A stretch of DNA of 64,000 bases from positions 1,512,722 through 1,576,721 of the forward strand of contig OY101121.1 in assembly GCA_956465555.1 (NCBI GenBank). Direction: 5' to 3'. Made by a program: the position numbers and the translations under genes. This stretch comes from Nitzschia sp. pyKryTriq1 (lineage: Eukaryota; Bacillariophyta; Bacillariophyceae; Bacillariales; Bacillariaceae). Under the pieces are notes generated by a model. It did no database searches, was not told the origin of the DNA, and worked only from the letters and a program-made list of their open reading frames with translations. Positions 5,226 through 31,509 of the stretch are shown in pieces (position 1 is the stretch's first letter; every line of letters starts with the position of its first letter).

Positions 5226-5379
5226 GATAATGGTGAGGTGTGTTTGATGGAGTAATGTAGAGATGATGTGATGTGAGAGTGATGCAGAGAATGAACACAA
5301 AATAAACACAAAACTTGCGGGGCGCAATGGTTGGATGTTGTTGCTTGGAAATTCGAAAGCGGAATTTTGGGAATTATCT

Positions 5380-5525
5380 GATTTTTCTATTGAATTTTCT
5401 GATTCCTAATTCCTGATTGGTGAGTGTGCCGGACGGTCGGAGTACCACTGTTTAGTCGGAGTAGGCCAGGACGAGTTGGTTTGAACAGGACCGGCCGGCT
5501 ACAAAAAGGTGGCATTGAGGGGCTC
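5380..5525 (-). repeat. Right terminal inverted repeat of the MULE
   Basis: Begins GATTTTT and ends GGTGGCATTGAGGGGCTC. It pairs with 3881-4027 over its full length with one indel. The near identity of the two ends points to a fairly recent insertion. Confidence 0.9.
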
Positions 5526-5877
5526 CCGAAGAATGTCATCTGTACCTCCATGTCCACTGTATCAAGTACCAAGCCTTGGATCAAGGAATGCGAGGAACAT
5601 CAAATGCCAGTTTTTTGCCAACGTTTTGGGCGTGATCTCATGGTTTCGCGATGACCCTGTAGAAATTCTACGAGGACGGCACTACTTCGACTATCAATTC
5701 TTCGGACATTATTGCCGTCTCGCTTGATCGATACGCACGCGGGTGGTACGTATCACGCAGATCGGTCCAACAACCAACAACAACAAACCTTCTCTCTTGG
5801 GATGATTCACAATTTGGAACATTGACGAGTTTCACTTGATTTTACCTCTATCATTTGTGGCAACTCTCAATAGCACC
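5526..5877. other. Intergenic, upstream of the U-box gene
   Basis: No coding evidence. It runs from the right end of the transposon to the U-box start codon and presumably holds that gene's promoter and leader. The 40 bp before the ATG are A/C-rich and end in CACC just before ATGG. Confidence 0.5.
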
Positions 5878-6588: not shown

Positions 6589-6760
6589 GGACATATCAAT
6601 GTTTCCAGTCGGCATATTTCTGCCAGCTGTCTCAATTTAGTGAAGGATCTGAGATTTTGCAAAGGCACAAATACTATACTTGCATGCATCGAGAAAAGGG
6701 GTTGAGATTGAGTAGATCGGGATTGTCTCGGCGTAATCAGTTCTAATATATCGGAGTTAT

Positions 6761-9181
6761 CTAAGATTCTTCAGTTTCCTCTGAGTCTTGTACAGACTCG
6801 TCATTCTCTACAGACTCGTCGTCCTCCTTTGGCTCTTTCTCTGGTTCTTCTTCGTCATCGGATACGTCATGTTCATACCAAACGCCACCGCCGCCGTCGA
6901 TGAGCTCAGCTTTGTTGTTGTCATCTTTGGAGTAAATACCTACGCTTTGCATTGTATGGCTTCCCTTTTTCTTTTTTTTCTCCGCTGCTCGATCCTTGAG
7001 ACTTGATGAGGATGTGGATGCTCCTGATCCGCCGATCTTGACAACCACAGCGGCGGCCGGCATCAGGCCATGTTCTTTAAGCGACTTCTTCATCTGCTCT
7101 TCGTTCGATGACTTGATGACTAATCGCTTGGCCACGCAAGTAATCTGCACTTCCTCCTCGCTCGATACATCGACTTCTAAAGCATGGAGAATGGAACTCA
7201 GTGGGTCGTCTTCATGGAGCACAACCTCGTGTACCTTCTTCTTGCCGTCGATTCGAAGCTTCAAGGAACATGCAGTCGGGTCAACATATTCTTCTTCCTC
7301 GTCTTCTACGATATCCTCGTCCTCCACAGATGCTTCCGTTTCTAATTGTAGCTTCGCGCGGTCTGCCTCATCTTTCCTCTTTCTGGCTGCAGTTGCCATT
7401 TCGTTGCGATTCTTTTGGATCCACTTGTCAATGCAATCCCTAGCAACGACGAGCGGCGCCACGTTGATAACTTTCTTGCCCTTACCCAGAATCATTTCTG
7501 AACCAGATTTCGCAAAACCAACACTCTTCAGAACTCCCAGAGCCTTTGAGTTGTTGGTAATCTTAGATGCAATCATCTTGTTCTCCAGGTTGACTTTTCG
7601 ATACTTTTGCTCATAGGGATTGTTGACAATATTGTTCATAAACGTGCGCAATAGTCCAGCGGTGCCTTCCACGTCAGGAACGGAATCGTCCAGGACCAAA
7701 GCATCCATTTGGGTAGTGATGCGATCATGAAGACGTTCTCGGGCCGAAAAGGAAAAACACGCCGCTCCTGCTGTCTTGACTAGCTTGGCGGTCAATTCTT
7801 CGTACTTCTTCGATTCATCCTCCGTGACGGCTGGTTTGAACGGTGCCGCCCCAAACAATCCCATCATGAAATTCTTCATCATATCTTCTGACTGAGGCAT
7901 CCCTTTAAACATGTGGACAATTTTCCCATCGCGGATCCCAAAAACAGTGGGCAAGGCAGTGACCTCCAAGGCGCCACTGACCGGTCGTTCATTGTCCGAG
8001 TTGATCTTGACCAATCGAAAAACTCCCCCTGATTTAACTGCCATTTCTTCGAGAGCGGGTCCCAATACTTTGCTAAGAGTTATGGAAGGATGAGGACACG
8101 ATTGCATCAAACTTGCAAGTTCCCATAGACTACTACATCATCCAACTTAAGTGGGATTCACTTACCACGGTCCACACCAGTCTGCATAGATGTCCAAAAG
8201 TACGGGGACGGGAGACTCGAGGACAAGTTCCTGTATTTGTGCTGTTGTTGCTTCAAACACAACGGTCTCTTTGGGCACAGGCTTGGGCATACCACTTGGA
8301 GGAGTTTCTCTTTTCGGTGCTGCTTTGGGTGTCAGTGGTAGAGTCGTTGGATCAAAATCAGCCTTGACCTCTACCATGCCCGGTGTCTTCTTGGAAGCTT
8401 CCGCACGCAATTGCGCTCTCATGGCTGCTTCTTCGTCATCTGCTTGCGCTTTTGATTGGGCCTCTTCCTCCTCCTCATCCAATTGATCTGCAATTAAAAT
8501 AGCACGTGCGTCCTCAATGTTGCCTTCGGCGAATGCAAGAGCTCGTCGACTGAGAAAGCCGTCGAATCCCTCCTCCTCCAACATTTTCAAATTTGGATCG
8601 TCGCTTGGAATACTTTCAATCAGATTCAGCTCATATTGAATCATTTCACGGGCTGCCTTTTCATTGTAGATTCGCTTATTTCCTTCTCCAAAGGTACACG
8701 TCGCTCCAATCGCAGCCATGGCCAACCGAGAATCGACATTCATATCCTTTGCAATCGAAGTTGCAAGGACATTGGGATCCTGTTCGGACGACTTTGATGA
8801 TGATGATTCGACTGCTGCTGCTGTGGACTCGGGCATGGCACAAATTCCATCCTTACACTCTCCTGTATTGTCGCCGTCCTCGCCGTCGTCTTCGGGAGGC
8901 GACATGCCGAGTTTCTTCATGGCAGCGTAGACCTTTTCGTCCAAACTCGGTTCTTCTGTGGTTGCTGTGCTGGAAGAAGCCACCGGTGCATCCACCGTAC
9001 TAGCCGCCTCATCCCCTCCTCGAATCATACTCATCGTCACAATCAAAGACGTTGTGGAAAAGTCTCGGACAGTAGGAGTCTGCAGTAATCCCCACGGCTG
9101 GACCGCCGATGCACTATTCGGGAAGCTTGCCGCGAGAACGACGCCGGCAACAACCCACGTTTTAGAGGTGGAATTTCCCAT
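6761..9181 (-). CDS. ER-leader UBA-thioredoxin-PUB-UBX-like protein
   Basis: Two exons, complement(6761..8072, 8166..9181), give about 775 residues. The intron has a GTAAGT donor and a TTAG acceptor and falls inside the thioredoxin motif: joining restores WCGPC followed by KVLGPALEEMA, the usual family order. Domains in order are: an N-terminal hydrophobic signal (about 9-25) with a possible A-S-A cleavage site followed by Val; a UBA-like helical stretch (EEEGFDGFL, then ALAFAEGNIEDARAIL); a thioredoxin fold (WCGPC near 335-339, cis-Pro in ALPTVFGI); a PUB/PUG domain (NNIVNNPYEQKYRKVNLEN, LGVLKSVGF), which binds p97/Cdc48; a ubiquitin-like UBX-type strand set; and a very acidic tail. Start chosen at MGNSTSKTW because it begins the signal. 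This combination suggests a redox-active Cdc48 cofactor behind the ER membrane, possibly in the periplastidal compartment (inference). Confidence 0.8.
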
Positions 9182-10053
9182 GTTTCTACAGGTAGTCGAC
9201 GACGACGACGACGACGACGATGATGATAATAATTCTACTTGACTGACTGACCGACTCGAGCTGGTTGCAATCAAACTTTCCGACAGGAATAAAATCAAGA
9301 CTATGGAATGCTTGATCGTTGGAATGAATGTCGATGCCAGGATCCAGGATGGTTTTCAACATGAAACATGAAACAAGAGCATGCTTATGATATGTGTAAT
9401 ACAACATCAGTTGAAAGTGCGTCTTCCACGTGTCGTCGTCGGATCGAATGATGTTTTACTCTACACGTACGTGTACCGGTACGGTACCAGGTACCAGGTA
9501 CCTGGTGCCTGGTACCAGTACACGTTCGCGTACTGTATTTTGATGGATCTGCAGATCGCTACTCGTACCGATCGATCTTTTCTTTCTTCGTACCGTACCG
9601 GTACGTACCGGTAGTCGTACAGTACACGTACCTGGTACCGCACTGGTACCGGTACAACAGTACCGGTACAAGTACAGTACCGGTACCACCGTACTACGTA
9701 GAATGACTGTAATGAAAAAACTTACGTAGCATATGTACCAAAATTCACGTCTGACGGCAGCCTCGTAGATCGGTCTAACCTTCATCCGTCTCTCAGCCAA
9801 CCCAAATCCACACAGACAGGCCACAAGACAATAGAGAGGAGCGACGATGGCGCTCCTCCTCTCAACCGATCTCATCTCGCAACGTTGTTGTGCCATTCAT
9901 ATAGGGCATTGTTGCTGTACGAGTACATAATAATAAGTGGACCTCCACCAGCACTGTTTCCCACAAGGAAGACGTCTTTTTGCTTTGGATTTGTTGAGGA
10001 ATAAGACTGTGCACCACATTTGTTATTGAATCATCTCACAAGAAATACTCAAA
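9182..10053. promoter_or_regulatory. Head-to-head intergenic region, GTAC-rich
   Basis: This 872-bp region separates the divergent thioredoxin-PUB and SPT5 genes and so should hold both promoters. A run of GAC/GAT triplets lies at 9196-9230. At 9474-9685 there are six copies of the palindrome TACCGGTA mixed with GGTACC and GTAC repeats. No convincing gene; minus-strand frames here are driven by the repeat. Confidence 0.6.
9474..9685. repeat. Cluster of TACCGGTA / GGTACC palindromes
   Basis: Six TACCGGTA copies plus an inverted GGTACCAGG...CCTGGTACC pair (about 9482-9520) lie within ~210 bp. The same 8-mer occurs once or twice in many other intergenic regions of the window. Confidence 0.8.
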
Positions 10054-13755: not shown

Positions 13756-15694
13756 TCAATCGCTTTGCTGTAATAGTGTCTGCGCCCTCGTTCGGGGAGG
13801 CGACGGCTCCTCCTCGCCCAATGCGGTATGATATCTATCGTGATGACGCCGCGTGCCGAGTTTGAAGATTCCCACGCTATCGTCGGTCGAAGAAGTGCAG
13901 TTGCATCCTTTGGACCGATCACAGCAAAGACCATACTGATCCGGTGCTTCACCTGGACCATCGGGTATTGGTACAATATTTCCATACGTGAATGTGGCAA
14001 CTTCCATAGCATGTGCTTTTAGAATTCGATTTAAAGCAGCCACATCCTCCTTCCTTTTTGGACTCTTATTCGGATCATTCAACGGCGTAGACTCGGATGG
14101 GTCTACGTCCACATTAAACATGAGCGGTGGATCATAGTGTTTTGTAAGGTTTTTGTCTTTCCATTGGCCCAACCCGGGAGATGTACACCAATGCGCCTTG
14201 TATTTGCCATGACGAACAGCCGTAACCGAATAATAGGGGTGTCCATTGCAGGTGCCGTAGAAAAAGAGAAAGTCGTGGGTGGATTTCCCCCCTTCATTCA
14301 AAAGAATGTCAGACATGTCGCGCCCATCCAAAACCCGGTCGTTTGGAAGGTCTACTCCAGCCAATTTAGAGAGCGTCGGGAAAACATCCATGGAACTTAC
14401 GATCTCCGAGGAACGACTGAATGGTTGGATGGTCCCTTTCCAGTACGCAAACGCTGGCTCTCGAATGCCGCCTTCCCAGTTGGAGCCCTTGCCTGTATCC
14501 CAATATCCACTGCTGCGCCCGGTGAATAATCCTTCACTCCCGCCTGATAATCCTCGAACAAGCCAGGGGCCATTGTCTGAAGTGAAAAGGACAAGTGTGT
14601 TCTCATCCACACTTAACTCTTCCAGCTTTTTGATTACATTCCCCACCATCCAATCGGCCTCGGCCAAGGCATCGCCAAATATGCCTCGTCGAGTACTTCC
14701 TTTGTGGGCGCATCCAGCGTATTGCATTTCCGGCTGGGAGTTTGAGGTTGAATGGACATGGCTGAAGGGAATATACAAAAAGAACGGATCATCTTTGTGC
14801 TTGTCCAAAAAGTCCATCGCAAAGTCATTGTACTTTTGTGCCAAGGTCGTGAAGTCTAAAGGCTGCTCCAAGATTCTCGTTTGATTGAATTCCTGGTAGA
14901 CGAGCGGGAGGAAATCTCCCGCAGGGTCGTCCTCTCCAGGGTAAAGACATGTATCTGGCTCTTGACAGGCGGCGTTTAAAAGCCCCAAGCCTTCATACTG
15001 CTCTCTGTACCACCCCGACACACTACTACCGGTAGGTTCGTCGTCCACTGTCGCCTCATTCGTCTCGTCACCCAATCCATAGTCATAGTCCGCGGGACAA
15101 CTCGAGGCTATGCCGTCGCCCATATCATCCGAGTAGGGAATACTTCAGCACAAACAATTATATACACATTGAGAAATCCTCCTTCGTTCAATTTTGCACA
15201 AGGAATTGTCATGCTGCGAGAAATTCTTACCCGAGATAATAGTCAAATCCTCGATTACCCGGTAGATACAGTTGACGCTGGCCAAGGTGCCACTTTCCGA
15301 TGATAGCTGTAGAGTATCCAACCTGCTTCAATTGCTCCGCGATGGTCGTCTCATTGAGATTGAGACCTCCTTTGCCAGTTGGACCAAACACACCGGGAAC
15401 CCCCGTTCGGGGGAACTGGCGACCGGTCATCAGCGCAGCTCGAGAGCCGCTGCAAACGTTGCACCCACTGTACCAAGTGGTCAAAACCTTGCCATTCCAC
15501 GCTAAACGATCCAGGTTCGGTGTCTTGGTAGTGGGATGACCCGTGAATCCAAGATCCCCATAGCCTAGGTCGTCCATGAAGAGGACAACGAAATTCGGTC
15601 GTTTGCCCTGGTGCGGGGATGTGCCGTCATGTCCACTCACAAATTCCACGAACGCAAGAAAAACAACACCGACGATCTCATGATTAAACCACAT
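13756..15694 (-). CDS. Arylsulfatase A-type sulfatase, secreted
   Basis: Two exons, complement(13756..15142, 15231..15694), give 616 residues. The junction (CTCGG|GTAAG ... GAAG|T) restores FDYYLGIPYSDDMGDG, a classic arylsulfatase stretch, which supports the intron. The N-terminus is hydrophobic (MWFNHEIVGVVFLAFVEF), consistent with a signal peptide. Metal-binding residues are visible in FMDDLGYGDLG, TSDNGPW and GKWHLG. The formylglycine site reads CSGSRAALMTGR, with Gly where the usual C-x-P/A-x-R has Pro or Ala. The C-terminal region has several Cys residues, as in secreted or lysosomal sulfatases. Predicted to remove sulfate esters from glycans or lipids. Its 3' end is 115 bp from the SPT5 stop (convergent). 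Confidence 0.9.
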
Positions 15695-16210
15695 GGCTAG
15701 CTGGTTGAAGGTTGATGATGATAGATGCGATGATGGATCTTTCGTTTGACTTATTTTCTGTTGCTAGTGGTTGCTGGTTGTGCGCTCGTTGCTGGATCTT
15801 ACGCATCATAATGTCGTCATCATGGTCGTGGTAGATCTTATTATAGTACAAGTAGTGCGAACAATCCGATGTAGCCAGGTACGAGACAGCATCTTGCATG
15901 CGTGATGAAGGCGAACCCGCCCGTGAACGAGAACGACGAACAAGCAAGTAGGATAGGATGACGGAGGAGGCGAGGATCATCATCCATCAAAAAACCGAAT
16001 TTGAGTGCCGGTCGTTAAATGAAGCTCCGAGACGCTATGTGATCGTTCCTGAAAAAGCCTCGAGCTTTCGATCGAAGCCGATCAAATAAATCAGCCCTCA
16101 AACTACTAGCTTGCGACATCTTAGCAAGGGTTGATCAGCTCTTTGCTCACAAAATCAAATCCTCAAATCCAAACAACATACAGCAAACAACAAAAGTCTA
16201 CTATAATACC
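15695..16210. promoter_or_regulatory. Head-to-head intergenic region
   Basis: 516 bp between the divergent sulfatase and NmrA-type genes. No gene seen; presumably holds both promoters. The 80 bp before 16211 are A/C-rich, typical of the leaders in this window. Confidence 0.5.
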
Positions 16211-17152
16211 ATGTTCCTCTCAAAACTTATTAAGAAGCTCCGCGTGGCCCGCGTCAACGAGAATGCTTCATCTAAGAAAAAGGTCATTGTAGTCGGAGCC
16301 TCGGGATATGTCGGAAAAGCTACACTGGCTGCCTTGACTTGTCGTCACTCCAATACAGTATTTGCTGGGGTGCGCAACCCCGAAAAGTTCGATACCATGG
16401 AAAAAGTAACTACTCTTGCTGCCGACATGAAAGACAAGGCTCGCTTGACCGAAACCTTACGAGGCTTTGACAGTGTTTTCCTTGTGGTTCCTGGTCCCAG
16501 CCTGGATCGCACCCAACTTGCTATCAATGGATGGACTAGAAGCTGCCAAGGATGCAGGAGTCAGCTTTGTCCTTATTGTATCTGTCTTGACGTCTGGTAC
16601 GGATTCCATCTTCGGGAAACAATTCGCGCCAATTGAAAAAAAGGCCAAGACGATCGGCGTAAACTACGCCATCGGCCAACTTCCACTCTTTATCGACAAC
16701 AACTGGGCACACCTCGGAACAATCAGGGGGCAAGATGCTCCCACTTTCTATGATCCTCGAGATTCCACAAAAGTCCACACCCAGTTGCGGTGAGCGATGT
16801 AGGAAAGGCATTAGCCGATATATTGGACAATCCGGTCAAGAATTACGGTAAAACGTACAAGTTCGTTGCCCCTGCCTATTCCTTGAATGACTTTGCTGCG
16901 GCCTTCACCAAGGCGTTGGGCAAACCCGACACTCATACTCAAGGGAGCTACGAGGATATCAAGAAGGCATTCATGGGCATGGGCTTCCCCGAGTGGCAGG
17001 TAGATGGTATCATGGAATTGTACCAGTACATCGATAACGAGGATCCTTTGACCAATGAAAGCACCCAAATTGGCGATATTGAGGCCATCACCGGAGAGGC
17101 ACCCCAATCCATCGAATCCTGGGTCGAGCACAATGCAGCTGGCTTCCAGTAG
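16211..17152 (+). pseudogene. NmrA/SDR-type NAD(P)-binding reductase, two frameshifts
   Basis: Three overlapping frames encode consecutive parts of one NmrA-like atypical short-chain dehydrogenase. The start (16211) gives a Rossmann motif VVGASGYVGKATL and a VRNPEK dinucleotide-choice loop. At 16527-16534 the tetranucleotide ATGG is doubled, shifting frame; the second frame continues GLEAAKDAGVSFVLIVS and QLPLFIDNNW. Near 16778-16782 one C appears lost from a C run, shifting back; the third frame reads VSDVGKALADIL to the stop at 17152. The two shifts (+4 and -1) cancel. No intron signals explain them. So it is either a young pseudogene or an intact ~313-residue gene with sequence errors. Family members are redox sensors or NAD(P)H reductases. 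Confidence 0.65.
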
Positions 17153-17344
17153 ACCGAAACGAATGAATCTCGGATCGATCATCGACTAGCTCCTGCCCTT
17201 GCATGTATGCACTTGACAGTTTCATCCATTTGCCGCCGTATTGGTATGTAGTATGAAATCAATTAGTAACGTATATTTCATTATCAAATCTTGCTCACCA
17301 AAGCAGAAAGATATAACTGTCTTTGTTCGTTCAGACATCGCCTC

Positions 17345-18808
17345 CTACCATTGATATGGCAAACACTTGTCCTTGAGTCCGCCCCCCGCTCGACCTCGTC
17401 GTGGTCGTGGGCAGTCGATGCTTCTATTGCGCATTGCAGGATATTCTTTTCGTTCAAATTGCGCAGCATTATTCTCCAGAGGCAGGAATTTGACAAATTC
17501 TTTGGAATGTAGCCCCTCACGACCTTTGGGTCCCTTGTATCGGAACCTGATCCAAGTAGAATAGTTACAGCACCAATCCTGATAGCTCTCGTAGCATTGC
17601 AACGTAGGAGGGAGTTCGGGTATAAGTGCTGCAGTAGTAGTGGTTGTGGTAGTATTGACTGTTTTTTCGTCCAAATCATGAGGCACCACTTCGCAATACA
17701 CTTTGGATAGCTTTTGGTTCTGATTCCCAAAGGCCAGCGACATGGGAGCGGTTTGACTAAAGGAACTGGGTTTGGCTGCCACGACGACGTCGGCATGACT
17801 GAGCAAAAACATGTCCATGAGGGTATCGGTCCAGCCTTTGAGACAAGTAGAATAATCGTCGTCCACTGCATTAATTCCATCCTTGTTGTGAACTTTGTCA
17901 GAAACACCAAAGAGCACCCCCTGCCCCTCCTCTCGACGTCCTTGCTGCGGCAAATCCAGTACTGGTATATTGGCGGGTTCTAATTCTTTCCGAAAGAGCG
18001 ATACCATGGACGGTGTATCCGTAGCAATATACAAGAGCGGAGGCGAAAGAGGATGCTTTTGACTTTGCAAAAAATCTTGAATGAGTTGGCTCACCTGCCG
18101 TACCCACACCGTAGGATTCTCAATCATCCTTCCCTTGCGAACGAACTCCCCTCCCTCGCCATTCCCCGCTCGTACATGCATTGCAATCACCGTCCTGGAT
18201 TCGAAATGTTCCTTCACAAAGGCGTCCACCTGATGTTTGGCTCGAAATCGTCTTCGAAGGGACGAGTACAATTCCAAATCGGCATCAATCTTATCATCAT
18301 GACAAGGACATGCAGTACTCGTAGTTTGGTTGGTTGTCTGAATTTTTCTTCTCGCCACGGCCACAAAGCCTGGAACTTCATTGTAAAAGGGCAAAATAAT
18401 GTTATGCGAAATCACGTGCTGGAGTTCCTCTTGGGACTGTGGCTCAAAGAGGTACGAAAAGACTTCAATCGGGTGCTGTTCCCCGCACCATCCCCAGAAG
18501 GATCGGAGGGAAAATCCTTTGACTTTTGCCACATAATGTGCCAAAGACAAGCGAATGAGACGATGGCCGAGACCACAGCAGGCAAAATAGTCCACAGAAG
18601 AAAGACTTGATAGTAGTTCAGACTCAGGCGTAATGGCGGTAGCAGTTTGGGTCGTCGCTGGTGGAGCATGAATGACGGCAAAATTACAAGCCATCACGGC
18701 CACGTAACTTGCTACCAGCAACCGAAACCACCATTTCAGTGACAATGATCCAGCAAACCGCCTTGGTAATCTCGGTCCGTCAACAACATGAGTGGGATGC
18801 CGTCGCAT
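17345..18808 (-). CDS. Type II membrane fucosyltransferase-like protein
   Basis: The product is 487 residues from the ATG at 18808 (a TTG-initiated extension adds seven). A short basic cytosolic tail is followed by one membrane segment (about 27-46, WWFRLLVASYVAVMACNF), then a Thr-rich stem, the layout of Golgi glycosyltransferases. The luminal part has a HVRAGNGEGG motif, like the H-V-R-x-G-D motif of alpha-1,6/O-fucosyltransferase folds, then LLYIATDTPS (sugar-nucleotide pocket) and a late SSFSQTAPMSLAFGN segment. An ACCGLGHRL sequence near the N-terminus matches the Gly-rich opening of such folds. GDP-fucose transfer to glycans is likely but the acceptor is unknown. It converges on the NmrA-type gene (192 bp apart). 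Confidence 0.65.
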   Translation of the reverse strand: MRRHPTHVVDGPRLPRRFAGSLSLKWWFRLLVASYVAVMACNFAVIHAPPATTQTATAITPESELLSSLSSVDYFACCGLGHRLIRLSLAHYVAKVKGFSLRSFWGWCGEQHPIEVFSYLFEPQSQEELQHVISHNIILPFYNEVPGFVAVARRKIQTTNQTTSTACPCHDDKIDADLELYSSLRRRFRAKHQVDAFVKEHFESRTVIAMHVRAGNGEGGEFVRKGRMIENPTVWVRQVSQLIQDFLQSQKHPLSPPLLYIATDTPSMVSLFRKELEPANIPVLDLPQQGRREEGQGVLFGVSDKVHNKDGINAVDDDYSTCLKGWTDTLMDMFLLSHADVVVAAKPSSFSQTAPMSLAFGNQNQKLSKVYCEVVPHDLDEKTVNTTTTTTTAALIPELPPTLQCYESYQDWCCNYSTWIRFRYKGPKGREGLHSKEFVKFLPLENNAAQFERKEYPAMRNRSIDCPRPRRGRAGGGLKDKCLPYQW

Positions 18809-19779
18809 GCTCCATCCACTGAGCAACAAGTGGAGAGTGCAAAGAAGAAGTATGCCGTAGGTCCCTACTTTTATGGTCAGGTAGTCATCATTCTCACGTT
18901 TTGACTGTTGAGTAATGTGATCATCGCGTGTTTCAGTCAGTACAAGTACTCGTACGCTGCACGTACCGCTAGCGGTAGACTACCAGTGCCGGTACGAGTA
19001 CACGCAGTACGTGTACGGTATGGAACTCGAGCGTGACTGCAGGAGTGACTGACTGATGAAGAGTTGCAGTCGCTTTGGTCGAACTGTGAATTCGAGAAGC
19101 GCTCCTTCGGTCGCGTCGGTCGGTCACAGTGGTCGGGTCGCCGGCGGGTCGGGGTGGTCGGTGCGCAAATATTGTGACCACATCGACTGGAAGAAGAATC
19201 TTGATCTGGCGCAGGCGCCAACAAACCCTCAACTCTCTCGGACACTGTAGACCGATGGTATAGTACTGTTAGTGAAATAATTCGTTGGCCTATGCCCCTG
19301 ATCGATTCCGATTTGCGTAGCAGGATCGTCCTCTCTCGGGGATACCCTTGGGTACATCTCCTTGCCTCGTCCTTGTCAAGGTGTGAAGGGATGGCGGGCG
19401 GGTTTTTAAAGCTAATTAATCATGATCCTTCCTGTTGGATCCGCTCCTGGAGGAAATCCTTCCACTTCGGGTTACTAGGTTGCGCCATTGAATGGTTTGA
19501 AAGTTGCTTTTAAAGCTAATTAATCTAGAATTCCGAAGTTGGGATTTGCGATACCGAGGTTGACTCGATGATCTTATGAGGTTCATCGGTCGTCTCTCTT
19601 GGTATCGGTTTCGGGTTTGGGTGTTCGTTCGACTTCTTGTCTGTCCTTCGTTCGTTGGGGGTGGCCACATGCTTTCTGCGATCCTTCGCACAATCCTTGT
19701 TCGTTGTTCGATGTTGTTGCGACGATGACGTTTAATTTTGACATAATTCACATTTTCAATACCATGCCTGCATATTGTA
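18809..19779. other. Intergenic region with dispersed repeat
   Basis: Between the divergent fucosyltransferase-like and threonine aldolase genes. It holds a GTAC-rich stretch (about 18940-19025) and, from about 19205 to 19650, a diverged reverse copy of the tandem repeat at the right edge of the window. No gene is supported. Confidence 0.6.
19205..19650 (-). repeat. Dispersed repeat, reverse relative of 63552-64000
   Basis: Read on the minus strand this matches the right-edge repeat in order: ACCCCCAACGA with GACAGAC and AGAAGTCGA, then CCATCCCTT with GAGGCAAGG and GATGTACC, then CTACGCA, TAGGCCAACGAATT, ATCGGTCTA, TGTCCGAGAGAGTTGAGGG and TTGGCGCCTGCGCCA. It is longer in the middle; that extra part includes a direct repeat of TTTTAAAGCTAATTAATC (about 19405 and 19509). 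Confidence 0.7.
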
Positions 19780-21144
19780 ATGGTTTGTCGATGCCATCGC
19801 CTCCGTTGCATTCGTGGTGAAATGTCGTTAGTCGTCATGGTGATGTTTCCCATCCTGGCAGGCGCCATGGCCACCACCACGTCTAATAGCAAGCCCCTGA
19901 GACTTCAAGTACCTCATCCTGCATTGACGCCGAAAGAAACTCTAGAAGCATTGGCGGTTCAATGCGAAGAGCTGGGGGTGGATGAATGGGATGTTTACGG
20001 CGACTTTCACAAGACAGCAGCCGACTCGTTTTTGCGGCAATTCGAGGCCGAATTGGCACAAGAATTTCAGAAAGAAGATGCCGTTTTTATCCCGAGTGGT
20101 GTCATGGCTCAATCGATTGCCCTATTAATACATTCGAGGAAGAACGACGTCGGGACGATGACAACTACAGGTACGACAACAACTCCAAAATTCATCTGCC
20201 ATGCCACAAGTCACTTGTTGCTGCATGAACAAGATGCCTTTCGGGAGTTGTGTGGCTTGGAAGTCGTTTCGTTGCCCCGGCATGGTCCCGGCACTGGCTT
20301 GGGAGCACCACCTCTCCTTTATGACCATGTGTATGCATATTTACAAGCGCAGGACCACGAAGATGGTATCTCTACCATTCTTGTGGAGCTGCCTCATCGA
20401 GAGCTGGGAGGAAAGCTCACTCCTTGGGAGGACATCATCATGATGCGACAACTTGCGAGCTCGAAGGGAATAGCTTTTCATTGCGATGGTGCGCGTATCT
20501 TTGAGGCTACGACGGGCTATGGCAAAACAGTAGCCGAACTGGCAGAACCGTTCGATTCGATATACATTTCGTTCTACAAGGGGCTTGGTGGAATATCGGG
20601 CGCCATGCTGTTGGGCCCGAAGGAGTTTTGTGATGAAGCGAGGATATGGTTGCGCCGCTTTGGTGGCAATCTGTATACGCTTCTTCCATACGCAGTCTCG
20701 GGATGGAGTGGATATAGACGAAACTGGGTCCAGCCAAGGCAATTGCTGGGAGAAGAAAATGCACAAATGAGCTTCCAGCAAAAGAAGGACAAACTGCTAC
20801 GACTTGCAGAAGCTTTTTCTTCGAAAGAGGCTCTATCCCAAGTCCTGACCTTGGAACCTACTGAGCCACATATTCCTATGGTACATTGCTATCTCCGAAC
20901 GGCATTTTCCCTGTCAGAAACAATTCGTGATACTATAGAGAAGAAAATGGGGGTTTCCATTTTTCACCGCCTTCGACCAATCGAAGATTCAGACCCGGCA
21001 TTTCAAAAAGGGTATCGGTGCAAATTCGAGCTTTCTATTGGTGAAGCCAATGGATCTATCCCGGACGATATATGGATCAAAGCGTGGGATCGATTCGGGA
21101 ATGACGCAAGGATGGGCATGTCTGAATCTTTAGAAAGCCAGTGA
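19780..21144 (+). CDS. Low-specificity L-threonine aldolase-like enzyme
   Basis: 454 residues in a single exon; ATGs at 19780, 19822 and 19867 are possible starts, the first giving a hydrophobic leader (SLVVMVMFPILAGAMA) that may be a targeting or signal sequence. The fold is PLP-dependent beta-eliminating lyase/threonine aldolase. Visible are FIPSGVMAQSIAL, HATSHLLLHEQ, the PLP-binding Asp in FHCDGARIFEA (D236) and the Schiff-base Lys in SFYKGLGG (K267), then an Arg-rich FGGNLYTLLPY. Expected reaction is cleavage of threonine or allo-threonine to glycine and acetaldehyde. It is a little longer than bacterial enzymes because of the leader and a Thr-rich insert near 123-137. Its stop is 56 bp from the convergent alpha-mannosidase stop. 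Confidence 0.85.
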   Translation: MVCRCHRLRCIRGEMSLVVMVMFPILAGAMATTTSNSKPLRLQVPHPALTPKETLEALAVQCEELGVDEWDVYGDFHKTAADSFLRQFEAELAQEFQKEDAVFIPSGVMAQSIALLIHSRKNDVGTMTTTGTTTTPKFICHATSHLLLHEQDAFRELCGLEVVSLPRHGPGTGLGAPPLLYDHVYAYLQAQDHEDGISTILVELPHRELGGKLTPWEDIIMMRQLASSKGIAFHCDGARIFEATTGYGKTVAELAEPFDSIYISFYKGLGGISGAMLLGPKEFCDEARIWLRRFGGNLYTLLPYAVSGWSGYRRNWVQPRQLLGEENAQMSFQQKKDKLLRLAEAFSSKEALSQVLTLEPTEPHIPMVHCYLRTAFSLSETIRDTIEKKMGVSIFHRLRPIEDSDPAFQKGYRCKFELSIGEANGSIPDDIWIKAWDRFGNDARMGMSESLESQ

Positions 21145-21200
21145 TATTGCAGCAAAACCACAAAAGTTTGAAAGAACTGTTATATGTGCTTAAGTCAGTT

Positions 21201-24200
21201 CTAACGTTGCTGTTTTAGGTGATCTTCTCGTACCGGCGACACTGGAATGCGAACGGAGCAAATCCGTCTAGCACCTACGGAAAGAATAATGCTCTTTCCA
21301 CCATCTCTAGTATCCAGAAGACAGCCATCTGATGAGCCACGTCGTCGAAGACCATTTCGACTTTCTACGGGTGTGAGGTAGGTTAGCAAGTGCAGTGTTG
21401 CCGCTTGAGCAAATATCTTGGACGAATTCATAAAAGCGGTCGCCAGATCAACTTCCTTAGTGGATTGAGTCAAAAGATTTTCAATCTGCACATCAATCCA
21501 TGCCTCTTGTCTTTCAGGATCAACCTTGGGATCAACCTGAGAAAGACGCAGAGTGACACTGTGGAGCGATGACTCCAAGGTATTGGGTGGATGTGAATCC
21601 CAATGAATCTTCGTCTGCTGTTTACTTTCTTCGGGTATAGCCAACATCACCATGTCGTTCGCAAGCTGCGTCCCAAGGCGGCGAGATTGAAATTCTTCCT
21701 CGTCAGTATTTTGGCCTAGACTGAGCCATATCGATGAGACGACGGAGGAAAGGTCTTCCCCTTGTTTCCAATAATCAGGTGTGAAGTTGTTTCTTCTGTG
21801 CCAGAAGACATCCATCTGCCCACTTTCCTTGGACACCACCGCCCTTGGGTCAACGGAAAATGCAGTCAATCTTCGTCCTTGAATCTCGGCAATCCAGGAA
21901 CGCGACACTAGTGGTCTAGAATTCCAGTCCCCGACGCCATGCGAGGAGTTGTACGATACCTCAACGGGAAGAAACCCATTCTCGTCAACTGACCACTTTG
22001 TTTTGGACCAGCCAGTGCGAAAGCGGGACGCCAAGTCGACCGAAGGGGGTAGGGGGCCAGCAAGTACTGTTGCCTGAATTGCGCTCTCCGGCTGACTGGA
22101 AGTTGTGTTGGGCAGCCTATATCGGATTGAAAGCCAAGGGGTGTATTCTAATGTCACTTGTGAGAAGAGAGGACCCTGGAAACCATTCACAAAGCGACGC
22201 GGGCGTGAACCAAACAACGGGGGAGGGTTACTGGAAGCAAGATTGGTCGCAAACTCGTAAATTGTATCGTTTCCACCATAGTAAAGAATGAAATCATGAT
22301 CCAACGACGAAGTCAATTCTGTCCCATCTTTGCGTATCGAGGTCATTGAATCGATTTCCAGCGTCGATTTATTGAACCCAATCTTCAACCTTTCTGAGGT
22401 CAAACCATTCTGACCTAGTTGAATAGAGTCAAAAGGCAGTGCCTTGTGGGAGCATTCAAGGGTAGGGATGTGCACAGGATCTTGGAATGTATTCCAGGTC
22501 AAGTCGCACACTTGGACATTGTACCTAGCCTTCCACAAACCCGGTACGGAGGCTTCGAATGTGATCAAGAAGAGACCCAGATTTGCGGCTTCCATCTCCT
22601 GGTCCAAGGGTGTTGCCTGAGATTGAACTGGTTCGAGTGACCCATCCTCCCGAACCCTGCTAATGGCTACATCATCACGGGTGCACACAAAATGAACCAA
22701 TGAGGTTGTACTTTGGGACAAGGAATTCAACACTAGAAGTGTTATTCCATCAAATCCCATTTGCGGACTCAGTATTTTGTCGACGCTGACGCTTCGAGCT
22801 GTTTGAGCATCGCGTACCAAAACAGTTTCATGTATGTATGGACCCCCGCCAAGAATTTTTCCCGCTACCGAATGATGACATGATCGAGAATCATCTTCCT
22901 TCGAATCGTCTGCTCTCTCAATTTCAGATAAAAGCCTTGTCATTTGGCGGAAAGTGGCAGCAAGTCTCTGCATGTAGTCTGCAATAACAAAACGGTAGGA
23001 AGTAGCTGTGATGGCATCATGATGCTGCATAAGACCCATCGTTTCCCGTGCCTTTCGTGCCTCCTCAACCCAGTAGGATACATGGCTCCACGGCGCGTTC
23101 CGAAAAAGTGATGTCTGGCAAAGTCGAACTTCCACTGTCCGTAGTACAACTTCACAGGTTCGAAGCATTTGCTTCAAATTGGGCAGCTGAAAATAATATC
23201 CAGCGAGCAATGGTTGAAATTCCACCCCACCGTGAATAACAGGAATGGATTGTTGTTTGGATTTTAAAAACCCATCCATGACAGCGTTTTGATATTCCTT
23301 GGGTGTGGAGTATCGAAACGTCGCGTTGCCGTACCGGTCGGGATGGCCCGTGACATAGTGAAAAATACGTTCCATATTTCGAAATTGCATGGAAGCATTC
23401 TGAAATGTAAAATCCCCACCCATGGGAATCAGGACGTGTGGCGTACGGTAGTAGGCCAATCGCTCGGATAGAACCTTCATGAAAATGTCACTCCGTTCTC
23501 GCACATTCTCCTTGGTGATCGGAATAGGGTCACCGTGCTCCATGTCTTCCCAGTCAAAACCATGGGGAGACGCATAGTGTGTGTCCATGACATGTACAAA
23601 GATTTTGGCCTGCCCTGTGTCCCAGTAAAACTGAAGGGTTTGGTTGGCTTTGAGTGCGTCCTTCACGTTGCTGGGCATTCGATTCAAAACTAGAAAGTCC
23701 ATGCCTGCCCAATCATGCAAGTTGACAGTGAATGGTGACGGACCAAATGGATCAATTTGCCACCCTGTGGTAACGCTAACATTAGGGCGACGCAGATGAT
23801 CGAATAACATTTGCTTCAATCGATCGTGACCTTCTGTCATTTGATGGATCTGAGAATCATATCGTGTAATCCCCTCGTCGTGCATAACCCAGCCACCGTT
23901 AACAATTTCAAGCCGACCCAGTATCAATAGCTCATGAAAGAGTTTCTTTTGCTGGTCGGTTGTCCGAGGATCTTTCCACCAGCGAGTCAAATATATCGTT
24001 TCCGCCCACACAAAGCGCCGCGATTTGTCGCGTTCCAGTGCGACACTCATCGAGTTCAGAACATTTCGTACTTCTGTCTCGTAGTACTCGTCGAAAGTTT
24101 TCTTGTAGGCAGCATCACAGTGCGAGTGCGGGAGTATGTGAAAGACAGTATTCGCACTTGTATTCGTATGGGACGCCTCGGGAGTACTGGTACTGCGATG

Positions 24201-24464
24201 GGCAATCGCAGCATTGGTGGATGTTGCGCGTTGCCGGGCTTTGGTCGTCGGATCTTCTGCAAATAATGACAATGACGTCGAACCGTCCTCCTTGACTCCT
24301 CCCCCTCCTCGCGGATCCACCCAGAAGAGAGCGGCAAAAATGGCAAATGCGACGAGAAGTGCTGTAAGGTTCAACGAGGCGATCATCGTGACATTGTTGC
24401 TGCCAGCGAGAAGAAACCAAATGAAAAAAATAACAACGCAGTCTTCGTACGATCCCAAACGCAT
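21201..24464 (-). CDS. GH38 alpha-mannosidase, type II membrane
   Basis: 1,087 residues, no intron. An N-terminal anchor (MIASLNLTALLVAFAIFAALFW, start possibly the second Met at 24386) is followed by a Ser/Thr stem. The GH38 catalytic domain shows LPHSHCDAAYKKTFDEYY with zinc ligands His115 and Asp117, WQIDPFG with the Asp238 nucleophile, and MGGDFTFQNA with Asp351, which resembles the lysosomal MAN2B1 type more than Golgi mannosidase II. Then comes the middle helical domain with WSHVSYW and MQHHDAITAT (His of the zinc site) and a long beta-rich C-terminus. It trims alpha-linked mannose from N-glycans in the secretory pathway or vacuole. Tyr120 stands where Trp is usual, and GPS replaces GHS after the nucleophile. 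Confidence 0.9.
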   Translation of the reverse strand: MRLGSYEDCVVIFFIWFLLAGSNNVTMIASLNLTALLVAFAIFAALFWVDPRGGGGVKEDGSTSLSLFAEDPTTKARQRATSTNAAIAHRSTSTPEASHTNTSANTVFHILPHSHCDAAYKKTFDEYYETEVRNVLNSMSVALERDKSRRFVWAETIYLTRWWKDPRTTDQQKKLFHELLILGRLEIVNGGWVMHDEGITRYDSQIHQMTEGHDRLKQMLFDHLRRPNVSVTTGWQIDPFGPSPFTVNLHDWAGMDFLVLNRMPSNVKDALKANQTLQFYWDTGQAKIFVHVMDTHYASPHGFDWEDMEHGDPIPITKENVRERSDIFMKVLSERLAYYRTPHVLIPMGGDFTFQNASMQFRNMERIFHYVTGHPDRYGNATFRYSTPKEYQNAVMDGFLKSKQQSIPVIHGGVEFQPLLAGYYFQLPNLKQMLRTCEVVLRTVEVRLCQTSLFRNAPWSHVSYWVEEARKARETMGLMQHHDAITATSYRFVIADYMQRLAATFRQMTRLLSEIERADDSKEDDSRSCHHSVAGKILGGGPYIHETVLVRDAQTARSVSVDKILSPQMGFDGITLLVLNSLSQSTTSLVHFVCTRDDVAISRVREDGSLEPVQSQATPLDQEMEAANLGLFLITFEASVPGLWKARYNVQVCDLTWNTFQDPVHIPTLECSHKALPFDSIQLGQNGLTSERLKIGFNKSTLEIDSMTSIRKDGTELTSSLDHDFILYYGGNDTIYEFATNLASSNPPPLFGSRPRRFVNGFQGPLFSQVTLEYTPWLSIRYRLPNTTSSQPESAIQATVLAGPLPPSVDLASRFRTGWSKTKWSVDENGFLPVEVSYNSSHGVGDWNSRPLVSRSWIAEIQGRRLTAFSVDPRAVVSKESGQMDVFWHRRNNFTPDYWKQGEDLSSVVSSIWLSLGQNTDEEEFQSRRLGTQLANDMVMLAIPEESKQQTKIHWDSHPPNTLESSLHSVTLRLSQVDPKVDPERQEAWIDVQIENLLTQSTKEVDLATAFMNSSKIFAQAATLHLLTYLTPVESRNGLRRRGSSDGCLLDTRDGGKSIILSVGARRICSVRIPVSPVREDHLKQQR

Positions 24465-25851: not shown

Positions 25852-28654
25852 ATGAACATGACCGATCACTACCACGTGAAAGTGTCCTCCCGGGTTGTCG
25901 CTTTGAGTTTGGTCTCATGTGTGCTGGTGGCATTGGCTGTCGGACATATAGCCCGGGTTATTCTCATTGACAACCCACAGAAAGCATGGCTTCTGGCTCA
26001 CCAAGACGCCTTGCTAGGAGGAGTAGGAGTAGAAATCTCTCAGTTGGAGCGCATCTTGAAGCTGCCAACTCCCGTACTCCCGTTCGGGAAGGTTTTGCCT
26101 CAGACAATCTACACTTCCAAGACATTCGACACTTCCAGGTCGTCGATCAACTCGCGTTGGGTTGTGACCGAGGAAGGCAGACAGCAATGTGTCGACCTTC
26201 CGGGAAGTGAATGCGCAGCCCCGGAAGTGGCCCAACCACAACCACCGACCAATGATTCAGCCCTGATTGGTAGTGCTGAGGACGACGAGATCCATATGCC
26301 ACACGGTCAGCATTTGCTTGTCGACATTGAAAATGTCGACAGTGGCTTCTTGAATTCCGAAGAGCGCCTTGCAAACGCCATGTTGGATTTGATCAATGGA
26401 TGTGGTTTGACTTTGTTGTCGTATCATTGTCATGGCTTGGAACCCAGTGGTGTCAGTTGTGCTGGTGTCCTATTGGAAAGTCATGTTTCGTTTCACACCT
26501 GGCCTGCTGAGGGTGTCATCACCCTCGACTTGTTCACTTGCGGCGACGAATCCTTGTTGCCAATTGTCCCTTTGGCTGAGAGACTTTTCGGTATTCCACG
26601 ACCTGGCGAGGCTGAGAAACCACAGATGGTCTGGGCTCACAAATTTCGTGGATTCAGCGACGACGACGACGATAGCAAGAGCGACATGACTGATTTTTTC
26701 CACTTCCCAATTGGTATCATGGCCGATTTCAAACAGCAGGTGCGTTGTACTGCTACTGACAGCCAACTCTTTATCGTGAATCCTGCAAAAATTAAGGTTT
26801 GCGTTTTTTCTGACGATCTCTATAATATTTTTCTCGTGTTTTCTCAATTGCTGACAACAGGTTTGGTCGGAAGAGACAGACTTTCAGCGGTTTGATGTTG
26901 TCGAAATCTTGAGGCCTCAGTACCAGAGCATGGATGACTACAAACGATCTCTACGTGTGGACGGCTCCTATGAATCCATGCACCCGGAGCTTTTTGAACC
27001 CGATAGAGTCGTTTTTCTTGACGGTGTGATGCAATCCAGGAGATCTGGCGATGCCGCTTATCATGAGGTACTGGTTCATCCGGGTATGTTTGTTCATAAG
27101 AATCCTAAGCGCGTTGCCATTATTGGGGGAGGCGAAGGTGCAACATTAAGAGAAGTACTCAAACATAAAACAGTCGAGAAAGTGGTCATGATTGAAATTG
27201 ACGCAAAAATGGTAAAACTGTCGAGAAAGTATCTACCTGGGTGGAGCGACTGCAGCATGCTTGAGGGCAGCGCTGACAGCTGCTTCGACGATCCCCGAGT
27301 TGAACTGTATTGCGAAGACGCATTTGCATGGTTCATTAATAGATTTGGCGGCGGAGAAAAGCTTGAAGAACAGTTCGACGTTATCATCATGGATGCTCTG
27401 TAAGTTGTTGGAAAGACTCGCAGCTGGGAGTCCCATCTCTAGATCAATTGTCGTTTATCTGACAGGATTTTGAAATTGAACCAGGGACCCTCAAATTCAA
27501 AAGGCTTTTGTTGCCACCCTGTACGATGGTGGGCCATTTCTCGGCTCACTTCCTTCGGCAATCGCAGATGACGGACTGTTTATTGCCCAGGTCGGTGAAT
27601 CTAGTAAGCTTAATTCACCACCCGAGCATATCGGATTGCACAGGAATCGAGTGAATTTCATCAGGAGCCTTAGCGACTTGGGCTTTGAGGCTGTCCGTGA
27701 TTACGAAGATGTACGTTTACGTTCCCCCCCCAAATGGTGCCAAATTCCGCATTTTTATTTTGTGACGCCTGAGATACTAACAAAATCGCAAATCTATAAA
27801 TTCTTGAATCTTAGAGACACGGGGGATTCGGGAGCGCCTGGCAATTTATAGTAGCCTCCAAGTCCTCTAGCGTAATGACTCGTTGGGTGTCTGACTCGTC
27901 ATTGGTAGACTATCAAATTCGGAAGCGGACGAAACCCACCAAGGGCGGGGATTCTTCGTTGCTATATTTTGATGGCGCAACGATGGCTTCATTTGCATTT
28001 CCAGCTAAGTCTAGCGAGGTTGTGTTTTGCCGCCGTTATGCTGACCTGCCAAATTGCAAGTCTGGGCATGGCTTCGACCAGGACAGGGAGGACATTCCAT
28101 TATCTGCGTTGGAGTTGAAGCCTAGCAATACGGTGGTCGACGGCGGAAGAGGTGTTTTTGCAACCCAAGACATTCCCAATATGTCCTACATTGGACTTGA
28201 GGATTCTGTGCACAGCGTGTACGTGAAATCTATCACCTCGGAGCTTCTTCGAAAATTGATCGAAAAACCGCTGATGACAACCGAGTTCAGTTCCAATGTT
28301 TCACTACTAGAAAACGTGGTGGTATTCGTTGATTCTTTTGGTCGCCAACAGAGAAAGAGTGTAAGTAACAACAAATGCCGAGAATGGGTCGAGCCAAAAA
28401 CTGGTGCACTCAATTGTTACTTTCTTGTTCAGGACGAGTCTGAAATCATGGTTGAAACATCTTTACATGCGTTCATCAACGAACGATGCAGCAACAATGG
28501 CGTCAACGTGGGTCAATTTGCCTCTATCGAGGAAGAAAACCACGTTTACAATCCAATGAGGGATCGACAGATCCACCTACTCCATGGTGCCCACCCGAAC
28601 AGCAATATCGCATTGGGCGACGAATTGCTGTGTAGAGGTGGCGAAGAATGCTAA
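25852..28654 (+). CDS. AdoMet decarboxylase / aminopropyltransferase / SET-like fusion
   Basis: Four exons: 25852-26796, 26861-27399, 27485-27710, 27815-28654 (849 residues; 825 if an in-frame 72-nt intron at 28361-28432 is removed). A membrane anchor is at residues 14-37. Bacterial-type AdoMet decarboxylase follows (about 145-315), with its self-processing Ser in LESHVSFHTWP (Ser210), His215 and Cys230 in FTCG, at the exact +5 and +20 spacing of that family. The spermidine-synthase-type domain (about 316-640) has FLDGVMQ, AYHEVLVH, IGGGEGATLREVL, IEIDAKMV and VIIMDALDP. The C-terminus has GRGVFATQDIP and HAFINERCSNNGVN, resembling a SET fold. It should make decarboxylated AdoMet and transfer aminopropyl groups. 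The anchor suggests the endomembrane system; diatom fusions like this have been linked to long-chain polyamines of silica. Confidence 0.9.
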
Positions 28655-28746: not shown

Positions 28747-31509
28747 CTAAAGAGAGTCTTTTTTCTCCTCTGACAAAGCACCAGCGCTTTCGTCTCCTGA
28801 ATTCGCTCCCTCAAGAAAGTTCGGGGCGCACCTTTGTAGCTTACTTTCCAGTGATTCTTTCTCTTTCTTCAGCTTCTCCACTTCCATTCGGAGCGTATTT
28901 GAATTCTTCTCGTGCTCCTCTGACTTGTCAAGAAGCGAAGAGATGGCCGTGTTGCTGTCTTGAAGCCGCGACCGCAAATCTTCCATCATGCTCTTATTTG
29001 CCTTCTCCAAGGAGGAAATAATGAGCTTGGCATTGGCTAGTGATTCTCGTTCTGCTTGAAGTTTCTTTGCAGCTCTCTCTTTCTCACCAATGGCTTTCAG
29101 AAGCTCTTTCTTCAATTCTGGTTCGTGGTCCGGCATACTGCCACCAGCTGCGATGAGAGTTGCCAGCGCGTCAGTCTGCTCCGGCCCGTATCCATTCAAT
29201 CTAGGGCTAGCAGAAGACACAGTTGTGTCGTTTTCGTCCTCACCATCACTAGCATCATCGGAGATGTAGCCAGAGGCATTGTCATCGACCTTCAGACTGG
29301 AACGCAGAACAGACAGCTCGCGTTCCTTCTTGGCAAGCAGCTCTTTATTGGTGGAACATTGCTCGCGCAAAATCTTAATCTCCGAAAGGAGGTGCTGATT
29401 GCCCCCCGTACTCTTTTGCTCAAGTCGAAGACGTCTGATCTCTTCATTCTGTTTCTTCAGTGCTTCCTCAAGTCGGCGAACAGCAATTTTCTTCTGTTCT
29501 AGTTCGTTCTGAATATTCTTCGCCAAGGCCTCGCGATCGTTCTTGATGATAGCATCGATTTGGCGCCCAACTTCGGACGAAACATCCCCCTCAGTGAATG
29601 CGGTGGCATCGTCATCAAATTCCTCAATATACTGCTCGGACAATTCCAAAGAAGTCCGGATTCCAACCATTACATCATTCAAAATGTCTGAAATCTGTTC
29701 AACATTAGCCTGGTCGGGCTGGCCGGTGGCTGTTGTGACTTCATGAACAGCGGATGCAGCTTGCAATCCCGACACACTCTTTTCGAGGAGCCCCATCAGT
29801 GCCTTGTGTCGTGCAACTTGTGTCCTACTCTGCGACTCGTGTCTGTGCACGTCGTCTTGTTTCTTTTGCAAATCGCGAAGCTCAGTTGCCAAGCTATCGA
29901 GACGCCGCTTTCTCTCCGCCGCCTCTTTCTGTACTGCGGCAAGTTCATCTTCTTTCGCTTTAAGCTTGGCCCGCAACTCCATGGCCATAGCCCCGTTAGC
30001 ATTCTCCAACGAAGCGATAATCTTCTTGGAAATTTCCAGAGAAGAAACAGTTTCGGACAAGTTTTTTTGCAAACTTTCGACGTCTTCGGCCGACATCGTC
30101 GACGCCACGGAATCGACATCAGTGTGGCTCGTAATATCTGGTCGAGGGGGTGTCATAGACCCCAATGTCTTTCTTTTCGCCTTCTGTTCCAAATTTGCAG
30201 CATCAAGCTCTAGTGTTAGCTTTTGATTGCGCTCCTTGATTTTCTCTAATTCCGCCTTGAGAGCTTCAACTTGATTGTTCGGCTGACCAGACGACTCAGC
30301 CTGCCTTTTCTCTTCCTCTACCTTCTTCAGTTGGACTTTCAGCACCTTACAATCCCTCTCGAGTACCATGGCATGCCGGGCCTTTCGATCGAGATCTTTT
30401 TGAGCAGCAACCTTGTCAGCCTCTAGATCCTTGATAATTGTCTTCAACTTTTTGATCTCTTCCTCCTTCTGGTTCGATATGGTGTCCTTTGCCGCACCAT
30501 CGGCAACAGAAGCTGCTGAAGGCGGAGGCGGAGTCGCCGGTGGTGGAGGAGGATTGGATTTATGCCACGTCTGCTTTTCCATTTCAAGCTTTTGGACCTT
30601 TTCGGATAAGGCCGATACAGTTTCATTCAAAACCTGAGTTTCTTCCTCTCTCTCGGTTGTCATCTCTCCGAGAACTCTCTGAATAGCTCGAACTTCAGCA
30701 TCATGTCCAATATCTTTTTTCTGAAGCTCGGTCTGAGCTTCACGAAGCTGCTCTTCCAATTGGTTAATACGGGTGACAGAAGACTCCGGAGATGAATTGT
30801 GGTTCATGCTTGCGAGGAACAACTTTTGATTGAGCTTTTCGACTCGGGCCTCCGAATCTGCAAGCTTCATTTCTAGCTCAGCAACCGTTGAGGATGATGA
30901 TTCAACCTTGGACTGCTTCGCATTAACAACAGTCGACTGGATTGCGTCCCAGAGCATGCGTTCTTCGAGTGACAAACCATCAGGCCTCTCCGCCGAATTG
31001 CCGTGGAGTGCTGCTGTCATTTTACTGACATTGGAAACAGAAGGGGGGTTTGGCAGAATGAAAGCGGCGCTGGGATCCAATGTTCGAGGAACCGGTGTCG
31101 ATGGCTTGCTCGTAATTGAGGAGTCCATTAGTTCATCCATCGGCATCTCATCGTCTTCATACGACGAATCAATAGGATAAGTATTATAACTTGCATCCGG
31201 AGAAGAAGACGCCCCGTGGTGCTTGCTGCGCCGGGCTTTACTAACTGCTCCATAGACACCTTCGCCGTAGTCTTCCCACGAGGGAGCAGACGAACGTAAA
31301 TTCAAAGGCGTTACCGTTTTCGGTGCAATTGGCATTTCTTTACTCATCTTACCCAGCGTCCCAGGCAAAATGGGCATTGTCGTCCGAGGACTGAATGCTC
31401 CTGTGGCCGACGGAAATTCTTTTTCAACGCCTTTTCGATTCATCGATGGCGAGGCACTTTGGGCCTGTCGGTCTCGATGCCTTCGACTCGGAGTAACTGT
31501 CAGTGGCAT
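28747..31509 (-). CDS. Long coiled-coil protein, unknown function
   Basis: 920 residues in one exon from an ATG at 31509. The first ~170 residues are basic and Ser/Pro-rich (TPSRRHRDRQ, LPGTLGKMSKE). From about 200 to the end heptad-like coiled coil dominates (long Glu/Lys/Leu/Gln runs), broken near 325-345 by a proline stretch NPPPPPATPPPP. Paired motifs KLIISSLEKANKSMMEDLRSRL and KKIIASLENANGAMAMELRAKL suggest an internal repeat. Such proteins act in cytoskeleton, centrosome or Golgi tethering, but no specific family is recognised. Acidic spacers (DDASDGEDENDTT) lie between coils. It converges on the polyamine fusion gene (92 bp between stops). Confidence 0.8.
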   Translation of the reverse strand: MPLTVTPSRRHRDRQAQSASPSMNRKGVEKEFPSATGAFSPRTTMPILPGTLGKMSKEMPIAPKTVTPLNLRSSAPSWEDYGEGVYGAVSKARRSKHHGASSSPDASYNTYPIDSSYEDDEMPMDELMDSSITSKPSTPVPRTLDPSAAFILPNPPSVSNVSKMTAALHGNSAERPDGLSLEERMLWDAIQSTVVNAKQSKVESSSSTVAELEMKLADSEARVEKLNQKLFLASMNHNSSPESSVTRINQLEEQLREAQTELQKKDIGHDAEVRAIQRVLGEMTTEREEETQVLNETVSALSEKVQKLEMEKQTWHKSNPPPPPATPPPPSAASVADGAAKDTISNQKEEEIKKLKTIIKDLEADKVAAQKDLDRKARHAMVLERDCKVLKVQLKKVEEEKRQAESSGQPNNQVEALKAELEKIKERNQKLTLELDAANLEQKAKRKTLGSMTPPRPDITSHTDVDSVASTMSAEDVESLQKNLSETVSSLEISKKIIASLENANGAMAMELRAKLKAKEDELAAVQKEAAERKRRLDSLATELRDLQKKQDDVHRHESQSRTQVARHKALMGLLEKSVSGLQAASAVHEVTTATGQPDQANVEQISDILNDVMVGIRTSLELSEQYIEEFDDDATAFTEGDVSSEVGRQIDAIIKNDREALAKNIQNELEQKKIAVRRLEEALKKQNEEIRRLRLEQKSTGGNQHLLSEIKILREQCSTNKELLAKKERELSVLRSSLKVDDNASGYISDDASDGEDENDTTVSSASPRLNGYGPEQTDALATLIAAGGSMPDHEPELKKELLKAIGEKERAAKKLQAERESLANAKLIISSLEKANKSMMEDLRSRLQDSNTAISSLLDKSEEHEKNSNTLRMEVEKLKKEKESLESKLQRCAPNFLEGANSGDESAGALSEEKKDSL

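Follow-up and report, generated by a model that had tools for sequence, protein, structure and literature searches.

The 64,000-nucleotide stretch of Nitzschia sp. pyKryTriq1 DNA analyzed here (the window) carries a gene on its forward strand, at 25852..28654, that is predicted to encode a fusion protein with an N-terminal membrane anchor, an S-adenosylmethionine (AdoMet) decarboxylase (AdoMetDC), an aminopropyltransferase and a SET-like tail. This domain composition is more than chance. An initial annotation had placed the start at 25852 and the stop at 28654, and both are correct. Its protein of 849 residues needs revision: 43 of these residues (19 + 24) are in-frame intron sequence, and a predicted model with five exons and 806 residues is better, as judged from homology and GT-AG borders. 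The four introns were placed by alignment to five relatives, and all of them are GT-AG. A border of intron 1 at 26797 without any intron 4 was ruled out by alignment to relatives. The 849-residue model served as the query for finding relatives and for the hidden Markov model segments; the alignment columns and the Pfam scan were redone with the 806-residue model. The gene is laid out as follows.

25852..26739, + strand: exon 1, N-terminal membrane anchor, linker and AdoMetDC domain (splice model from relatives)
25894..25950, + strand: transmembrane stretch, residues 15-33, Kyte-Doolittle mean 2.51
26311..26550, + strand: AdoMetDC domain PF02675, residues 154-233, Pfam E 1.3e-21 (806-residue protein)
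26479..26541, + strand: S210 (pyruvoyl), H215 and C230, motif within ESHVSFHTWPAEGVITLDLFTC
26740..26860, + strand: intron 1, GTGCGT...CAACAG, partly translated in the 849-residue model; 19 residues missing from the five aligned relatives
26861..27399, + strand: exon 2, aminopropyltransferase, AdoMet-binding half, PF01564
27125..27154, + strand: GGGEGATLRE motif of the aminopropyltransferase
27400..27484, + strand: intron 2, GT-AG, from alignment to relatives
27485..27710, + strand: exon 3, aminopropyltransferase; DALDP spans the exon 2/3 junction
27711..27814, + strand: intron 3, GT-AG, from alignment to relatives
27815..28360, + strand: exon 4, C-terminal portion of the aminopropyltransferase, followed by the first half of the SET-like domain
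28145..28174, + strand: GRGVFATQDI, first half of the SET-like domain, exon 4
28361..28432, + strand: intron 4, 72 nt, in frame, GTAAGT...GTTCAG, translated in the 849-residue model; 24 residues missing from relatives
28433..28654, + strand: exon 5, remaining half of the SET-like domain, with the stop codon
28472..28489, + strand: FINERC, replacing the family NHGC motif; His in 65 of 87 aligned rows, Glu in the focal protein
28616..28651, + strand: GDELLCRGGEEC, then stop, replacing GEELLDNYL; catalytic Tyr missing (Tyr in 58 of 87 aligned rows)

The N-terminal anchor of the initial annotation is borne out by the hydrophobic stretch at residues 15-33. The predicted anchor is a family trait, with a Kyte-Doolittle value of at least 1.6 at the N-terminus in 70 of the 80 relatives that have a measurable one. 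The flanking charge is more positive before the anchor in 23 of 66 cases and equal in 13, and thus does not indicate which way the anchor is oriented.

The triad Ser210, His215 and Cys230 does lie at the +5/+20 spacing that had been claimed for it, inside ESHVSFHTWPAEGVITLDLFTC. The features of a class 1b AdoMetDC (ES processing site, His at +5, Cys at +20) are all present, and they are nearly invariant among 87 aligned rows (E in 86, S in 86, H in 87, C in 86). The domain matches the structures 2iii, 1vr7 and 1tlu in the PDB. The assignment as a putative bacterial-type (class 1b) AdoMetDC fused to an aminopropyltransferase is supported. The second domain, likewise as annotated, matches PF01564 (Spermine_synth) with E 1.5e-33 and contains GGGEGATLRE. 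It has the GGGEG loop for decarboxylated AdoMet and the two acidic residues of DALD; the motif reads GGGEGATLREVL, in which DALDP is assembled over the splice junction.

The C-terminus had been proposed to be a SET-like N-methyltransferase. The fold is supported; the activity, for this copy, is not. The motifs GRGVFATQDI and FINERC are present, and a SET fold, the absence of which had been named as grounds for rejection, was found in the structure prediction. Every match listed for the tail model, 50 from Foldseek and 50 from VIA-align, is a SET or PR domain chain; the model was built from the genomic read-through and thus includes the 24 residues of intron 4. The fold search of a full-length relative was dominated by aminopropyltransferase matches and therefore says little on the SET part. 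Both the His of NH.C and the catalytic Tyr after GEE are absent from the focal protein, which ends in GDELLCRGGEEC. No further 3′ exon carrying the SET Tyr was found in a by-eye search of the 3′ flank. The loss of His and Tyr is common to two metagenomic sister proteins, and an intact relative is sister to this clade; relatives 64-66% identical to the focal protein end the same way. N-methyltransferase activity of this copy therefore appears unlikely, given that the catalytic residues are lost in the focal protein and its two closest relatives. The Pfam SET score (PF00856, E 0.14, 13.0 bits, cut-off 22.4) is not diagnostic in itself, since the motif-intact relative P0003 is also under the cut-off, with 15.2 bits. 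The corresponding region of P0008 matches SET over virtually the full profile (E 1.2e-6, positions 1-104 of 105). The tail shares its fold with SET domain methyltransferases such as SET8, MLL1, vSET and PRDM12 but differs from them in lacking the His and the Tyr and in its weak Pfam match.

At least 836 relatives were found among 7996 candidates scored, of which the best 120 were listed. Among the matches listed, the closest is 66% identical and the closest named one, from Nitzschia sp. Nitz4, 53% identical. The readable organism names among these 120 are diatoms; several names are incomplete. The fusion architecture is common, since a Pfam scan of 47 relatives (E <= 0.001) gave AdoMet_dc in 47, Spermine_synth in 47 and SET in 31. 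The order anchor, AdoMetDC, aminopropyltransferase, SET-like domain is that of the focal protein and is also seen in P0008. By strict patterns, all three motif sets are intact in 26 of 86 relatives, and the AdoMetDC and SET motifs occur together in 53; because the words used to find this set came from the first 500 residues, it is biased toward AdoMetDC carriers, and several members scored without SET motifs are probably truncated gene predictions.

Fusions of AdoMetDC with aminopropyltransferase were said in the initial annotation to be known in diatoms and proposed for long-chain polyamine synthesis, and this is already published. According to the statements in PMC3820600 and PMC12029483, such diatom fusions, sometimes with a histone N-methyltransferase domain, may make and N-methylate long-chain polyamines; both papers attribute the triple-fusion proposal to Michael 2011 (FEBS Lett 585:2627). 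In view of these published proposals the triple fusion itself is not new, and the focal gene adds a member to a published diatom family. It shares the three domain types, the diatom host and the proposed role with the fusions of Michael 2011, as reported in these papers, but this copy has lost the SET active site. A 2025 paper (PMC12803844) counts 32 fusion proteins with an aminopropyltransferase domain in Nitzschia inconspicua and states that such fusions need more study. Bacterial fusions of a class 1b AdoMetDC and an aminopropyltransferase are active in Escherichia coli; their descriptions in PMC12803844 and PMC6356823 mention neither a membrane anchor nor a SET-like tail, both of which are features of the focal protein. 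Human spermine synthase (3c6k, 3c6m) is described as having lost the AdoMetDC function (PMC12803844), whereas the motif is intact here.

The genome (assembly of 40.65 Mb in 20 contigs) gave 9 AdoMet_dc, 21 Spermine_synth and 10 SET-tail profile matches, some of which are exons of one gene. Twelve loci are fusions of the focal type, not counting stand-alone aminopropyltransferase matches and a SET-first family (described below, including the ninth AdoMet_dc match at C13:135). Decarboxylase motifs are intact at seven of the 12, SET motifs at five, and both at none. The seven are the focal gene, three tandem copies at C7:1447-1457 kb, C7:1431, C7:2363 and C3:882; the aminopropyltransferase motifs are also degenerate at C7:1431 and C3:882. 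The five are C6:1773, three genes near C5:142-155 kb (the NHGC of the third was missed by the pattern scan and read by eye) and a SET remnant at C7:1445. The chance of this exclusion pattern is 0.0013 for 12 loci, 0.018 for 8 collapsed loci and 0.048 for 7 without the broken remnant, figures that ignore shared ancestry, for a pattern spotted after the fact, and that are not proof. Complementary loss of AdoMetDC and SET motifs among paralogues is possibly a new point and the one most worth following.

The tandem copies (C7:1445604-1456236; L040, L041) are three AdoMetDC-aminopropyltransferase genes 3.66 kb apart and 99.9% identical, in which the SET domain is nearly gone. Their recent amplification may reflect selection for dosage. 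The SET-only remnant at C7:1445 adjoins them and is probably not functional, because its SET frame differs from that of the upstream start codon. The C5:142-155 kb genes (L054, L055) lack an AdoMetDC but have intact SET motifs and a degenerate aminopropyltransferase-like region; judged by eye, their N-terminus carries a hydrophobic stretch. They are candidates for the actual methyltransferase. P0121 and P0122, relatives of these genes, have no AdoMetDC match and keep NHGC and GQEILDNY.

We consider that the focal gene probably encodes an 806-residue, single-pass membrane, bifunctional polyamine synthase with a non-catalytic SET-like tail. The decarboxylase would cleave itself at Glu209-Ser210 to generate the pyruvoyl cofactor and would then decarboxylate AdoMet. 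The aminopropyltransferase would move the aminopropyl group from the decarboxylated product onto an amine acceptor, which is probably a growing polyamine used in silica formation but possibly only putrescine or spermidine. The tail, its fold kept and its active-site His and Tyr lost, would be a remnant without catalysis, or else serve in binding or as a scaffold. With the SET site of this copy lost, any polyamine N-methylation in this cell would have to be the work of other proteins, such as relatives in the same genome with an intact SET domain and a lost decarboxylase.

Several observations weigh against this proposal. The best matches by sequence and by fold include plain spermidine synthases, and the closest solved relatives differ in acceptor, so that the acceptor is not deducible from sequence or fold. 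An AdoMetDC of the eukaryotic type is also encoded in the genome, as is a strong match to spermidine synthase. For the tail model, the mean predicted local distance difference test score (pLDDT) is only 68 and the best Foldseek E-value is 0.0048. Among the focal protein, P0001 and P0002 the tail is 51-59% conserved and free of stops and frameshifts, and so it may keep some function. Domain identities were compared over 18 pairs of sequences, eight of them more distant; one of these eight, P0032-P0037, has both members motif-intact and is 88% identical in the AdoMetDC, 71% in the aminopropyltransferase and only 51% in the SET domain. Lower SET identity is therefore not peculiar to the clade with the dead site.

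The matches to plain spermidine synthases would also fit a spermidine synthase of the ordinary kind that carries its own decarboxylase, has no connection with silica and is anchored on some inner membrane, as would the report that bacterial AdoMetDC-aminopropyltransferase fusions yielded spermidine and spermine in E. coli (PMC12803844). We find this doubtful: separate genes for a eukaryotic-type AdoMetDC and a spermidine synthase exist in the genome, and the anchor is a family trait, whereas two spermidine synthases and SAMDC of P. tricornutum are described as cytoplasmic as EGFP fusions (PMC10968388). A single membrane-bound protein with three activities, which makes, extends and N-methylates long-chain polyamines, would agree with the published proposal (PMC3820600, PMC12029483), with the SET-like fold and with the 26 relatives in which all motif sets are intact. 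It is very improbable for this copy, in which, as in its two closest relatives, the SET His and Tyr are missing, and the tandem paralogues do without nearly the whole domain.

The tail might instead still bind AdoMet, as a regulator or a cofactor reservoir for the decarboxylase. Three diverged sequences have all kept the tail as an open frame, and blocks such as YNPMRDRQIH or YHPMRDRQIH are conserved in it. The NH motif contacts AdoMet in SET domains; its loss, together with the tandem copies that manage without a SET domain, makes such a role improbable. The degenerate C-terminus and the broken look of the related remnant at C7:1445 could suggest a decaying gene or an assembly artefact. We regard this as scarcely credible, since the core motifs are intact, all introns are GT-AG and the relatives 64-66% identical share the same ending. 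In this genome, an ancestral three-activity fusion may have been split among paralogues. Because the working forms of AdoMetDC and aminopropyltransferases are dimers or larger assemblies, mixed complexes of synthase-type and SET-type proteins on the same membrane are conceivable, which could rebuild the machine, with dead domains as docking or polyamine-holding modules. We think this rather unlikely.

A second family in the genome has the reversed order, with the SET domain first (the N-terminus is leader-like by eye), then an aminopropyltransferase-like and an AdoMetDC-like domain. Its loci are C13:130-136, C13:454 and 466, C15:212, and C16:398 and 403 kb (L046, L047, L048, L049, L051). Among the 120 relatives listed for it, none has the ES..H..C pattern or GGGEGAT and 73 have a GGGD..LLHE-like loop; NH[S/R/G] occurs somewhere in the first 450 residues in 52 of the 57 long relatives among the matches listed. 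This family possibly corresponds to the diatom-specific SET proteins of Nemoto 2020, for which, as cited in PMC11554505 and PMC11151724, cell-wall proteins and polyamines have been proposed as substrates.

Directly downstream of the focal gene and convergent with it lies a 920-residue open reading frame (28747-31509, − strand) that is coiled-coil-like by eye and has no Pfam match. The neighbors at 13756-24464 are a sulfatase, a NodZ-like protein, a beta-eliminating lyase and a GH38 alpha-mannosidase. Of these four families, three typically belong to the secretory pathway. No other polyamine gene was found in the window among the 20 scanned of its 24 other open reading frames of at least 250 residues, a scan that left out four frames at 6-9298 and shorter exons. 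ARAGORN found no tRNA.

The literature cited here still treats the enzymes behind the synthesis and methylation of diatom long-chain polyamines as proposals. The paralogues provide a natural test: synthase motifs persist without a working SET site in the focal gene and the tandem copies related to it, and other genes of the same genome have SET motifs but no decarboxylase motif. Contrasting both gene sets would reveal whether the proposed N-methyltransferase for polyamines is indeed the SET module.
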